A stretch of DNA of 64,000 bases from an uncultured SAR86 cluster bacterium (lineage in GTDB: Bacteria; Pseudomonadota; Gammaproteobacteria; Magnimaribacterales; Magnimaribacteraceae), in assembly GCA_902606175.1 (NCBI GenBank), contig CACLEZ010000002.1:62001-126000 (forward strand), written 5' to 3'. Within the stretch, counting starts at the first letter, position 1, and each line of letters starts with the position of its first letter. Of the stretch, positions 39,176 to 42,801 are shown piece by piece. The notes beneath the pieces are model-generated. The model searched no databases, was not told where the DNA came from, and was given only the letters and a program-made list of their open reading frames with translations. The position numbers and the translations under genes were made by a program.

Positions 39176-39841
39176 TTGCCTTTACAAGATAGACTCAAGA
39201 GCTTTGTCTTGAGGAGAGGGAGATTAACCTCTAATCAGTCAAGGGCGCTCTCGGAGCATTGGGACAAGTACATTCTAGATAATGAAGAAAAACTTAGTAA
39301 TATCTGGAACCAAGACCCTTCAATTTTAGATATAGGTTTTGGGTCAGGAGAGACTACTGCATATTTAGCTAAGACAAACCCCGAAATGTTAATTTTAGGA
39401 GCTGAGGTTTATCTGTCTGGAATAGGATCTCTTTTAAGTAAGGCAAATGAAGAGTCATTAAATAATCTTAAAATATTAAACTCAGATATTGTTCCTTTTT
39501 TGGAAGATAAAGTATCAGACAACTGCTTTGATCTAATCTTAATGTTTTATCCTGATCCGTGGCCAAAGAGAAAGCATCATAAAAGAAGATTATTGCAAAA
39601 AGACTTTATTGACTTATTAAATAAAAAACTAAAACAAAACGGTATCTTCTACTTCAAAACAGACTGGGTTCATTACTTCGATGAAACAAAGAAGCTGGTT
39701 AATAATGATATAAATTGGAGAGTTTTGCATAAAGAGAATCTTAAGGAATATTTAGTAAATTTACCTAAGACATCCTTTGAGATGAAGGCCTTACAAGCAA
39801 AAAGAAAATTAAATGAGCTTATTCTTCAAAAGACTTGTTAA
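39176..39841 (+). CDS. trmB: tRNA (guanine-N7)-methyltransferase TrmB
   Basis: A 221-residue SAM-dependent enzyme modifying G46 in the tRNA variable loop. The motifs are LDIGFGSGETTAYLA and FYPDPWPKRKHHKRRL, the latter nearly invariant in TrmB. It starts at TTG 39176 with CAGGAGA directly upstream, inside the end of rpoH. Its last 23 bases overlap rdgB on the other strand. Confidence 0.95.
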   Translation: MPLQDRLKSFVLRRGRLTSNQSRALSEHWDKYILDNEEKLSNIWNQDPSILDIGFGSGETTAYLAKTNPEMLILGAEVYLSGIGSLLSKANEESLNNLKILNSDIVPFLEDKVSDNCFDLILMFYPDPWPKRKHHKRRLLQKDFIDLLNKKLKQNGIFYFKTDWVHYFDETKKLVNNDINWRVLHKENLKEYLVNLPKTSFEMKALQAKRKLNELILQKTC

Positions 39842-40415
39842 TTAATTCAGAGACTTTGCTTAGTAGTTTTTTAAAAGCTTCAGATCTATGAGATATTATA
39901 TTTTTTTCATCTTTCTCAAGTTCTGCGAGATGCTTCCCGTTCTCTGTAATAAATATTGGATCATATCCAAAGCCATTCGTTCCTTTGAATTCTCTGGCAA
40001 TAGAGCCTTCAAGGGTTCCATAGCTTTGAATTATCTTTCCTTCAAAATATCCAACCAGACAACATCTAAATCTTGCACCTCTTTTGTCATCCTCAAGCCC
40101 ATCTAAATTTTCAATTAATTTTAAGCAATTATCATTATCTAAGCCCGTTTTAGAATATCTCGCAGAGAATATTCCAGGGCTGCCATCTAATGCATCAACT
40201 TCTAGTCCAGAATCATCACCTATAGCAGGTATGCCTAATTGTTTTGAAATGTACTCAGCTTTTATTAGAGCATTTTCATAGAAGGTACTTCCTGTTTCCG
40301 GTGGTAGATCTTTTATGTTTTCAGGGATTTTAATGAAGTCATGTGATGTGCCCCTTGCCAATTCCTCGAACTCTTTAAGTTTGCCATTATTTTTCGTAGC
40401 AATAGCTATTTTCAT
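39819..40415 (-). CDS. rdgB: dITP/XTP pyrophosphatase RdgB
   Basis: A 198-residue Ham1-family nucleotide cleaner. It opens IAIATKNNGKLKEFEEL and has GSTFYENALIKAEY, IGDDSGLEVDALDGSPGIFS and the C-terminal TNGFGYDPIF and SHRSEAFKKL motifs. It hydrolyses non-canonical purine triphosphates. It overlaps metW by four bases, the usual gammaproteobacterial order metX-metW-rdgB. Confidence 0.96.
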   Translation of the reverse strand: MKIAIATKNNGKLKEFEELARGTSHDFIKIPENIKDLPPETGSTFYENALIKAEYISKQLGIPAIGDDSGLEVDALDGSPGIFSARYSKTGLDNDNCLKLIENLDGLEDDKRGARFRCCLVGYFEGKIIQSYGTLEGSIAREFKGTNGFGYDPIFITENGKHLAELEKDEKNIISHRSEAFKKLLSKVSELINKSFEE

Positions 40416-40999
40416 TTAGAGATCTTATAAATGGCAGTGGTCGCAAATAAATTTGGTGCCACTTTAGCCAAGATACTTTCTTTCCCAAATTTATTAAAGA
40501 AGCATTTTTCTATTACATCGATTTCGCATTCACTACAAAGATTCTCAAAATCCTTAATGGTACATAAATGAATATTATCGGTATCATGCCAGGCACTTGG
40601 CAATGTTCCTGTCACAGGCATTTTTCCTGATAGTAAGAGATTAATTCTTGTGGTCCAATAACCAAAATTAGGAATTGTAACAATGCTCTCATTTCCAATT
40701 CTTGTTACTTCTTGAAGAGCTTTCTTGGGTTCCTTTAATACTTGAATAGTTTGGCTCATAATCACTATATCAAAACTACTGTCACTAAAATTCTCTAAAC
40801 CTTCATCAATATTTTGATGAATAACATTTAGACCAGACTGGATGCATTTATTAATATCATCTTGATTTATTTCTACTCCTAGTACCGTAGACCCCCACTC
40901 TTTGGATAAAATATTCAATATTTCACCATCTCCACAACCTAGATCAAGAACTTGAGACTCTTTATCTATCCAATTTTTTATAACTTCAATTGTATTCAT
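40412..40999 (-). CDS. metW: Methionine biosynthesis protein MetW
   Basis: 195 residues of a SAM-dependent methyltransferase fold. VLDLGCGDGEILNIL is motif I, FDIVIMSQTIQVLKEPKKAL follows, and FGYWTTRINLLLSGKMPVTG is specific to MetW. MetW is encoded with MetX and supports homoserine acylation. Its ATG abuts the metX stop, so it is presumably under the same SAM-sensing leader. Confidence 0.93.
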   Translation of the reverse strand: MNTIEVIKNWIDKESQVLDLGCGDGEILNILSKEWGSTVLGVEINQDDINKCIQSGLNVIHQNIDEGLENFSDSSFDIVIMSQTIQVLKEPKKALQEVTRIGNESIVTIPNFGYWTTRINLLLSGKMPVTGTLPSAWHDTDNIHLCTIKDFENLCSECEIDVIEKCFFNKFGKESILAKVAPNLFATTAIYKISK

Positions 41000-42109
41000 T
41001 TAATTTTCAAGAAAAGCCGATAAACCCTTTACATAATTTTCATTTGCAAACAAAAACGAGTCGTGTCCATGAGGACTATCAATTTCTAAGTAACTCACAT
41101 TTTTTTTGGCTTCGATAAGAGCATTTACAATTTCCTTTGATCTTTCAGGAGCAAACCTCCAATCAGTTGAAAAAGATACTACTAATAACTGTGCTTCAAT
41201 GGACTCAAAGGCATTTACCAATTTGCCTTCAAAATTACTTGCTGGATCGAAGTAGTCTAGAATCTTTGTCATGAGAAGATAAGTATTTGCATCAAAACTT
41301 TCTGAAAAAACATCACCTTGATACCTCAAATAACTTTCTATTTCGAACTCCGCATCATAACCAAAATTCAATTTTTCCTTTTTCAGTTCTCTTCCAAATT
41401 TGCTCCTCATTGCTTCTTCAGAGAGATACGTAATGTGCCCTACCATTCTTGCTAATTTGAGGCCTTGTTTTGGGTACTTACTTTTATCTAGATATCTACC
41501 TCCTTCAAAATCTGGATCATTTAATATGGCTTGTCTTGCAACTTCATTGAAAGCTATATTTTGTGCACTTAACTTTGGTGCTGCAGCAATAATTCCTGCT
41601 TTTTTTATTCTTTTCGGGAAAAGATAGGACCATTCTAGAGCTTGCATTCCACCTAGACTTCCTCCCATGACAGCATGCCATTTTTCAATGCCCAATGCAT
41701 CAGAAAGTTTGGCCTGTGAATTTACCCAATCCCTTACTGTAATAATTGGAAAGTCAGGTCCATAATAATCTCCAGTATCATGGTTAATTGAACTTGGTCC
41801 TAGCGAACCGTGACAACCACCTATATTATTCGGGCAAACTACAAAAAATTTGTTTGTATCAACCGCTTTACCTGGGCCAATAAGCGAATCCCACCAGCCT
41901 GGTTTATCTTCGTTTTCATATTTTCCAGCAGCATGATGATTACCACTCAACGCATGACAGATAAGTATTGCATTCGTCGCATCTGCATTAAGAGCACCAT
42001 AAGTTTCATAGACCAGTTCTATATCATTGAAACTTTGGCCGCACTCAAGCTCAAATTCACCCTCTAGAGTAACTTTTTGTGCCTTTACTGTTCCTATCGA
42101 ATCACTCAT
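41000..42109 (-). CDS. metX: Homoserine O-acyltransferase MetX
   Basis: 369 residues from ATG 42109. It is an alpha/beta-hydrolase-fold acyltransferase, with the nucleophile elbow in [12 protein letters not shown], the opening [29 protein letters not shown] and the final [11 protein letters not shown] with the catalytic His. It activates homoserine (acetyl or succinyl) for methionine synthesis. A GTG at 42133 in the same frame lies inside the terminator hairpin, so I reject it. Only AGG in the 3' terminator arm, seven bases upstream, can serve as Shine-Dalgarno. metW and rdgB follow. Confidence 0.95.
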
Positions 42110-42142
42110 AAAAAAACCTGTTTGCCTCGGCACAACAGGTTT
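42110..42142 (-). terminator. Intrinsic terminator in the metX leader
   Basis: On the minus strand AAACCTGTT pairs with AACAGGTTT, and an inner TGCC/GGCA extends the stem. Seven U's follow directly and the metX ATG begins at the next base. The stem also contains the only possible metX ribosome site, so folding should stop both transcription and translation. Confidence 0.88.
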
Positions 42143-42148
42143 AATTTA

Positions 42149-42201
42149 ATGCATTAGCTGTATTTCAATTAAACGCCCGCAAGCTGTGTCAAATCGGCGA
42201 A
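42149..42201 (-). ncRNA. SAM-II-type riboswitch aptamer upstream of metX
   Basis: Read on the minus strand, a short P1 stem (CGCC with GGCG) encloses GATTTGACACAGCTTGC and is followed by an A/U-rich linker and CAGCTAA. This order (P1, GAUUU..., UUGC, P1', UUUAA-rich linker, GCUAA) is the conserved layout of SAM-II, known from metA/metX leaders of alphaproteobacteria and marine metagenomes. AGCU in the loop can pair with AGCU downstream to form the pseudoknot. The size (about 51 bases) fits. The related SAM-V class has the same core and cannot be excluded. Confidence 0.8.
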
Positions 42202-42207
42202 AAAACT

Positions 42208-42236
42208 ATTATATTGAATCTATCTCTAGAAACCAA
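42208..42236 (-). promoter_or_regulatory. metX promoter inside the end of yggT
   Basis: On the minus strand TTGGTT (42236-42231), a 17-base spacer and a perfect TATAAT (42213-42208). The predicted start near 42201 is the first base of the riboswitch. The -35 overlaps the last codons of yggT. Confidence 0.65.
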
Positions 42237-42801
42237 CTGATAGCCAAACTGGCAATCCAGATTCAATAGCAAACTGTACAAATATTGATTGCAAGAAGTT
42301 TAATAAGATGAATGCGAATATAGGTGAAAAGTCTAGCCCTCCCATAGGGGGTAAGAATATTCTAAATGGACTGAAAAACTTATCCGACATTTGTCTAATT
42401 AAAACTATGGCTGGATGAAAATTATTCCCAGCCACAAAACTTAAAATTATTCCTCCCAATAAAATCCACCAAACCATTTTAAGCATTAATAAAATAACTG
42501 AGTAAGTAGACCACATTAAAATCTTTACAGGATCATAATCAACTGATCCTGCCATGACAGCTAAATAAAAGGCTCCTGCCTGAATAAAAACAGCTACTAG
42601 GAATGAGGCTAAGTCTATGTTCCTGAAGGGCTTAATAGCTGATCTAAGAAATTGACTTGGCAAGTCTACTGCCCTAATTATTCCTTGGACTAAAGGATTA
42701 TAATAATCAACTTTAAGAAGACGAAACATAAAGTTGAAAACTACACCAAGTGTAAAAACATCCATTAAAGCTTTGAAAAGGAAGAAGGTTGCTTCTGACA
42801 T
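42226..42801 (-). CDS. yggT: YggT-family membrane protein
   Basis: 191 residues carrying two YggT repeats, each a pair of helices: FNFMFRLLKVDYYNPLVQGI in the first and VLIRQMSDKFFSPFRIFLPP in the second. Members are linked to cell-envelope or osmotic homeostasis and usually follow proC. The role is not established. The start overlaps the proC stop by one base (TAATG). The metX promoter begins within its 3' end. Confidence 0.9.
   Translation of the reverse strand: MSEATFFLFKALMDVFTLGVVFNFMFRLLKVDYYNPLVQGIIRAVDLPSQFLRSAIKPFRNIDLASFLVAVFIQAGAFYLAVMAGSVDYDPVKILMWSTYSVILLMLKMVWWILLGGIILSFVAGNNFHPAIVLIRQMSDKFFSPFRIFLPPMGGLDFSPIFAFILLNFLQSIFVQFAIESGLPVWLSVGF

Follow-up and report, generated by a model that had tools for sequence, protein, structure and literature searches.

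A putative divergent SAM-II riboswitch with a replaced base 47 upstream of metX in SAR86 bacteria

The question raised by this locus is what kind of RNA element stands ahead of the methionine genes metX-metW in a SAR86 genome, and what that element might sense. The window (the whole 64,000-nucleotide stretch that was analysed) carries on its minus strand the gene order metX-metW-rdgB directly downstream of an aptamer-like leader, and profile searches confirmed all three genes. The metX gene (41000..42109) encodes a homoserine O-acyltransferase of the MetX family, which scored above the cut-offs of NCBIfam models NF047916 (612.5 bits) and NF001209 (544.1 bits); the top model, with a cut-off of 560, is that of a succinyltransferase-type MetX. 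The metW gene (40412..40999; TIGR02081 and PF07021) abuts metX, and a gene for an rdgB/HAM1-type NTP pyrophosphatase (39819..40415; TIGR00042 and PF01725) overlaps metW by 4 nucleotides. The upstream neighbour, on the same strand, is yggT-like (42226..42801; PF02325), and the leader occupies the gap between the end of yggT at 42226 and the metX ATG at 42109-42107. From this placement directly upstream of metX-metW the leader would be expected to regulate them. A first-pass annotation, made from the letters of the DNA, had placed the stretch in a gammaproteobacterial-type genome, which the nearest named records, SAR86, bear out. No similar DNA was found in phage records.

The aptamer core can be read directly on the minus strand as CGCC-GAUUUGACACAGC-UUGC-G-GGCG, followed by an A/U-rich stretch and then GCUAA. 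This is the SAM-II order that the first-pass annotation had given (P1, GAUUU, UUGC, P1', A/U linker, GCUAA). The P1 hairpin pairs CGCC (42199-42196) with GGCG (42177-42174) and encloses GAUUU (42191..42195), which by homology to SAM-II would be the third strand of the SAM-binding triplex, and UUGC (42179..42182), the 5' strand of pseudoknot helix P2. The A/U-rich loop L3 covers 42159..42173, and GCUAA, the 3' strand of P2, lies at 42154..42158. P1, GAUUU, UUGC and GCUAA are invariant in alignment A1, whose 24 rows comprise 21 leaders of genera g1 (the genus of the window) and g4 and 3 of genus g5; other genera are referred to as g2, g3 and g7, and the window's family as f1. GAUUU, UUGC and GCUAA are invariant also in alignment A2, which consists of 31 SAM-II RNAs of the SAR86 order. 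A GC/GC pairing, P2a, is possible after P2 and is invariant in A1, hence without covariation, and alignment to R1, the covariance model built from A2, puts a 3-base deletion after GCUAA instead. The minimum fold energy was unusual neither for the whole leader (z -0.87) nor for the aptamer alone (z +1.22), both folded without pseudoknots. Because the method omits pseudoknots, plain folding is uninformative for this aptamer.

The class of the leader was examined first with Rfam and then with R1. At gathering thresholds, cmscan of the window returned nothing at the metX leader; the sole match was a glutamine riboswitch elsewhere (RF01739, 43.3 bits, 2666-2791 on the plus strand), ahead of a 54-aa open reading frame from 2853 that contains three YRGV repeats. 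When all Rfam families were run at E<=10 over 551 bases around the leader, neither SAM-II (RF00521/RF01726) nor SAM-V (RF01826) matched, and a snoRNA match of 14.1 bits was taken as chance. The Infernal check that the first-pass annotation had named, with the Rfam models of SAM-II and SAM-V, therefore came out without a match in either class at E<=10. With no model match at that threshold and a terminator present, a SAM-V reading of the leader was rejected. Over the whole own genome at E<=10, RF00521 did not match the metX leader; it matched the metY leader with 34.4 bits and ten further places with at most 16.6 bits. Among 151 genomes of the order, 14 had RF00521 matches above the cut-off of 36 bits. 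Matches at E<=10 occurred in 143 of the 151, a count that is meaningless by itself because 13 of 14 control genomes matched too. A search of the phylum at E<=0.001 found RF00521 in 58 of 299 genomes, including 8 more from the same class, and in 0 of 14 controls. When 15 metX loci were scanned with Rfam at E<=1, leaders of g2 (two) and g3 (one) matched RF00521 directly upstream of metX with 32.4-35.6 bits, and those of g1, g4 and g5 gave no match. Since the g5 leaders keep the base A47 discussed below and are nonetheless missed, the miss stems from the whole divergent architecture and not from A47 alone.

The R1 model was trained without the metX leaders of g1, g4 and g5; its training set includes the metX leaders of g2, g3 and g7 and the g1 metY leaders. 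R1 matched the window leader with 41.2 bits (E 5.6e-8 in 64 kb, R1 E-values being rough), and the next match in the window had 13.8 bits. All 42 supplied loci were recovered at 34.1 bits or more, although for 9 of these the leader was already represented by another record, and 6 were g2, g3 or g7 leaders in or close to the training set. In the whole own genome the metY leader ranked first (78 bits) and the metX leader second. The third match (C11, 25.5 bits, E 0.0074) lies within a 129-aa open frame and was taken as chance. In the 31-RNA alignment, four of the six P1 pairs and both P2a pairs had changed on both sides. Paired cells amounted to 96.0% in that alignment as against 87.1% in shuffles, a share that none of 500 shuffles attained; the count of pairs altered on both sides was less striking, being matched by 60 of 500 shuffles, and both tests are inflated by kinship among the sequences. 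By sequence homology, then, the metX leader is best described as a divergent SAM-II homolog. For the earlier proposal of a SAM-II-type riboswitch plus terminator on metX, the homology is upheld by the R1 match and by the leaders of sister genera, which share place, gene and core with it and have the RF00521 scores given above; a match to the Rfam model itself is what it lacks. Rfam thus passes over SAM-II leaders that look functional in the marine lineage SAR86.

The base that directly follows GCUAA in the window (42153, minus strand) is the equivalent of base 47 of SAM-II, which we take to be in contact with SAM. Among 24 metX leaders, 19 from g1 and 5 from g4, this base is always a pyrimidine, U in 23 and C in 1. 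The numbering follows from the structure, in which A45 and A46 of SAM-II pair with U21 and U20 (PDB 2QWY numbering; PMC3764141), so that the next base is number 47. In SAM-V, A50 is described as hydrogen-bonding the amino-acid end of SAM, and inosine at that position severely reduced binding (PMC6061858). A49 is given among the SAM-II ligand-binding sites in PMC11508383, in a numbering that we read as shifted by two. By analogy with SAM-V, A47 of SAM-II presumably contacts the amino-acid end of SAM, and a pyrimidine in its place should weaken the binding of SAM by the metX aptamer.

The replacement is confined to a narrow set of leaders. A47 is present in 9 of 9 metX leaders of g2, g3, g5 and g7, and the metY leader has A47 in 11 of 11 g1 or g4 genomes where it was read. 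Outside the g1/g4 metX set, A47 is present in 121 of 122 pattern cores, which derive from 132 loci (18 without a core) gathered mostly via RF00521, a model that itself favours A47, and which include some duplicates and perhaps a few chance cores. The distinct cores with A47 over all collected loci number 103. The lone T47 core (L058, minus strand, 3698) is not the RF00521 match of its locus and has a loose 5-bp P1, and is likely due to chance. In a MetX tree of 30 rows, which omits g7 and two g2 rows, a single branch with support 96/91 separates the U/C47 leaders from the A47 leaders. The pattern GCTAAYG matched in 27 of 203 genomes of the order; 24 of these matches are metX leaders (19 of 19 g1 genomes and 5 of 6 g4 genomes), and the other 3 have P1 runs of 0-1 bp and were rejected. 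Across 299 genomes of the phylum the shorter pattern GCTAAY matched in 50, and the reversed control pattern likewise found matches in various genomes. Flanks were read for 31 of the phylum matches; the P1 run is 0-3 bp in 30 of them and 4 bp in one (L306), and none was convincing. No report of a SAM-II lineage without A47 was found in those parts of the open-licence literature that the search covered.

Loss of a contact base could mean that the aptamer has decayed, and the conservation of the core bears on this. None of the 24 metX leaders from g1 and g4 lacks the element. In g1 (19 leaders) mean pairwise identity over the 42 columns of the core is 0.970, with 37 columns invariant, and the 78 fourfold sites of metX in g1 have a mean identity of 0.415 with none invariant. 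With 97% identity in the core against 41% at fourfold sites, the variant core is evidently maintained. That the aptamer senses nothing, the leader being a constitutive attenuator or a small terminated RNA, would agree with the lost contact base and with a terminator far more stable than the candidate antiterminator (below). The excess of invariant columns over silent sites argues against it, and exact retention of GAUUU, UUGC, GCUAA and P1 is not what one expects of a dead aptamer, so we consider this explanation very improbable.

A second explanation keeps the fold and changes the ligand, the loss of A47 having retuned the pocket to another adenosyl sulfonium or related compound without the usual amino-acid contact, or to an intermediate of the methionine pathway. 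The SAM-V equivalent of A47 reads the amino-acid end of SAM, U or C stands there in 24 of 24 leaders whose aptamer is otherwise nearly frozen, and there are precedents for riboswitch variants in which contact bases differ and the ligand is new, for example from SAM-I to spermidine (PMC10853860). On the other hand, the regulated gene is still metX, one of the usual targets of SAM-II; GAUUU, the bases of the U:A.U triples and the U that follows GC are all kept; and a single contact base may merely shift affinity. A changed ligand is for these reasons quite unlikely in our judgement. The reading that we prefer, and regard as probable, is that the metX leader is a divergent SAM-II riboswitch acting as a transcription-terminating OFF switch for metX-metW-rdgB. 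By analogy SAM would be its ligand, and its affinity would be lowered or altered, given that A47 is lost and that a 2-bp G-C P2a possibly stands in for it. A broader idea is speculative and leans towards the unlikely: a SAR86 lineage of SAM-II that swapped base 47 may have come to sense another adenosyl compound, or may sense SAM in a pocket rearranged so that a rigid GC/GC P2a takes the place of the A47 contact. If this were true, a variant metX copy and a canonical metY copy would draw two thresholds or two signals from one fold. The natural loss of A47 beside an intact metY paralog in the same genomes provides a ready test of whether the base serves affinity, specificity or folding.

Candidate expression signals flank the aptamer. 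The TATAAT box proposed earlier as a minus-strand promoter is present at 42213-42208 and recurs in every one of the 24 g1 and g4 metX leaders. A weak -35 element, TTGGTT, lies at 42236-42231 with a spacer of 17 nucleotides, and the position of TATAAT predicts a transcription start at about 42201. The terminator hairpin with its U tract spans 42110..42142, with arms AAACCUGUU (42142-42134) and AACAGGUUU (42122-42114) and a U7 tract at 42116-42110 whose last base adjoins the metX ATG, as the first-pass annotation had it. The predicted fold has -13.3 kcal/mol, a value that 0 of 200 shuffles reached, and the hairpin shows the stable stem followed by a U tract that characterizes intrinsic terminators. 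A simple consensus scan for promoters and terminators, which demanded at least 4 of 6 matches in the first hexamer and an unbroken stem with a loop of 3-8, listed neither the TATAAT promoter nor the terminator on the minus strand. The likely ribosome-binding site, AGG at 42119-42117, lies inside the 3' arm of the terminator, 7 nucleotides before the ATG. It had been described as the only AGG, which is wrong, as the hairpin loop also contains GAGG at 42128-42125.

This overlap of hairpin and ribosome-binding site invites the explanation that control is mainly translational, the hairpin hiding the AGG and termination being secondary or absent. Besides the position of the AGG, a single lineage (L034, L035, L036) speaks for it, in which the U tract has become UUUAAUU and the hairpin is retained, with one G-C to U-A compensatory pair. 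Against it, U7 is intact in the other 21 of 24 metX leaders of g1 and g4; the three exceptions form a single lineage, whose hairpin has one broken pair and folds less stably, at -7.9 to -8.0 kcal/mol. We regard mainly translational control as unlikely for the leader as a whole. The retention of the hairpin despite the decayed U tract suggests that the hairpin also matters for translation, and in L034-L036 a shift towards translational control. It likewise favours a dual role, and it is plausible that a single hairpin blocks both transcription and translation, as had been suggested at the outset.

A candidate antiterminator pairing was identified. The segment GUUUAAUU in P1'/L3 (42174-42167) can form an 8-bp Watson-Crick run with AAUUAAAC (42139..42146), which overlaps the foot of the terminator. 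The run was tested after it had been noticed, and was equalled in 69 of 20,000 mononucleotide shuffles. All 8 pairs are formed in 21 of 21 g1 and g4 rows of A1, three of them via G-U. However, no pair had changed in a compensatory way on both sides, and the pairing did no better than in shuffled columns. It is also weak, at -4.3 kcal/mol, or -5.1 when one base is added, compared with -13.3 for the terminator, and it was not the predicted fold in L037 or in the three g5 leaders. The existence of the antiterminator is thus a possibility towards which we lean slightly negatively. In the proposed mechanism, abundant SAM would close the H-type pseudoknot (P1 together with UUGC:GC(U)AA, GAUUU being the third strand), which would take up L3 and the GCUAA strand and let the terminator hairpin form. 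Transcription would then stop just before the metX ATG, and in any read-through transcript the same hairpin would cover the ribosome-binding AGG. At low SAM, GUUUAAUU would pair with AAUUAAAC, which would confine GCUAA to a hairpin loop and occupy the terminator's foot.

The distribution of the leader across SAR86 follows family lines. A metX match was found in 129 of 151 genomes of the order, and upstream DNA was read for 110 of these loci: 33 of 34 in f1, where the 34th is a fragment without the start of the gene, and 77 of the 92 that belong to the sister families f2 and f3, with 3 loci in f4 excluded. Core and hairpin are present in 33 of the 33 f1 leaders read, and the core is absent from all 77 upstream regions read in f2 and f3. 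In 75 of those 77 loci (L073-L149) metX starts between -4 and +8 nucleotides from the stop of the upstream frame; of the remaining two, one has a gap of 45 nucleotides and one was not callable. Thus, the riboswitch sits in a gene pair that is uninterrupted elsewhere, and it was probably inserted between yggT and metX in an ancestor of f1, or lost elsewhere. The earlier reading of this leader stands in calling it SAM-II-type; it had missed both the replacement of the presumed contact base A47 and the confinement to one family among those read.

Several further leaders were observed in the course of these searches. The copy at metY, encoding O-acetylhomoserine sulfhydrylase (identified by TIGR01326 in the own genome and by its start sequence elsewhere), is more widespread across the order. 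In named genomes the leader pattern was found in 23 stretches, 16 of the SAR86 cluster, 6 of Gammaproteobacteria and 1 of a Puniceicoccaceae MAG. The last (L282, the 5.7-kb contig CAJWMY010000053.1) carries a SAR86-type U47 metX leader and a MetX start, and is probably misbinned. A tandem of a SAM-II core followed by SAM-I/IV (51.6-69.2 bits) occurs in L052 (2735-2924) and also in L053, L054 and L060; the L052-type tandem precedes a 217-aa protein that by eye resembles an exported beta-barrel. Seven examples of SAM-II ahead of SAM-I/IV are given in PMC9481103. SAM-II/SAM-V-like leaders with the core GATTTGATC(C)TATTGC...GCTAAAACGG were seen in L209, L221, L228, L234 and L069; their scores of 26.3-34 bits reach the cut-off of neither SAM-II family, and they may be a SAR86 subtype.

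Compared with known systems, the window leader resembles SAM-II (RF00521, SAM_alpha; RF01726, long loop) in its H-type pseudoknot core of the same order, in its position ahead of a gene of metX/metY type, and in the terminator that often accompanies SAM-II. It differs from SAM-II in several respects. First, A47 is replaced by U, or by C in one relative. Secondly, P1 has just 4 bp and P2a is probably reduced to GC/GC, and L3 is three bases longer than that of g2. Third, there is no Rfam match. The SAM-V class (RF01826) has a binding core nearly equal to that of SAM-II (PMC6061858), but SAM-V is described as translational and its model does not match the window leader. The first-pass annotation, which gave SAM-II at metA/metX as occurring mainly in alphaproteobacteria and marine metagenomes, had missed earlier reports from gammaproteobacteria: PMC2704228 describes SAM-II as commonest in Alpha-, Beta- and Gammaproteobacteria. 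SAM_alpha is treated for two alphaproteobacterial lineages in a regulon survey that covered about 200 genomes of proteobacteria (PMC4239095). Candidatus Pelagibacter ubique, a marine oligotroph, likewise has SAM-II before metX (PMC2704228, PMC5069961) but is an alphaproteobacterium. A further parallel is the metZ leader of Sinorhizobium meliloti, also alphaproteobacterial and described as a predicted terminator-type SAM-II (PMC9373788), in which a SAM-II aptamer is followed by an intrinsic terminator before a methionine gene. In contrast to that leader, the U tract in the window abuts the start codon, and the arm of the hairpin carries the ribosome-binding site.
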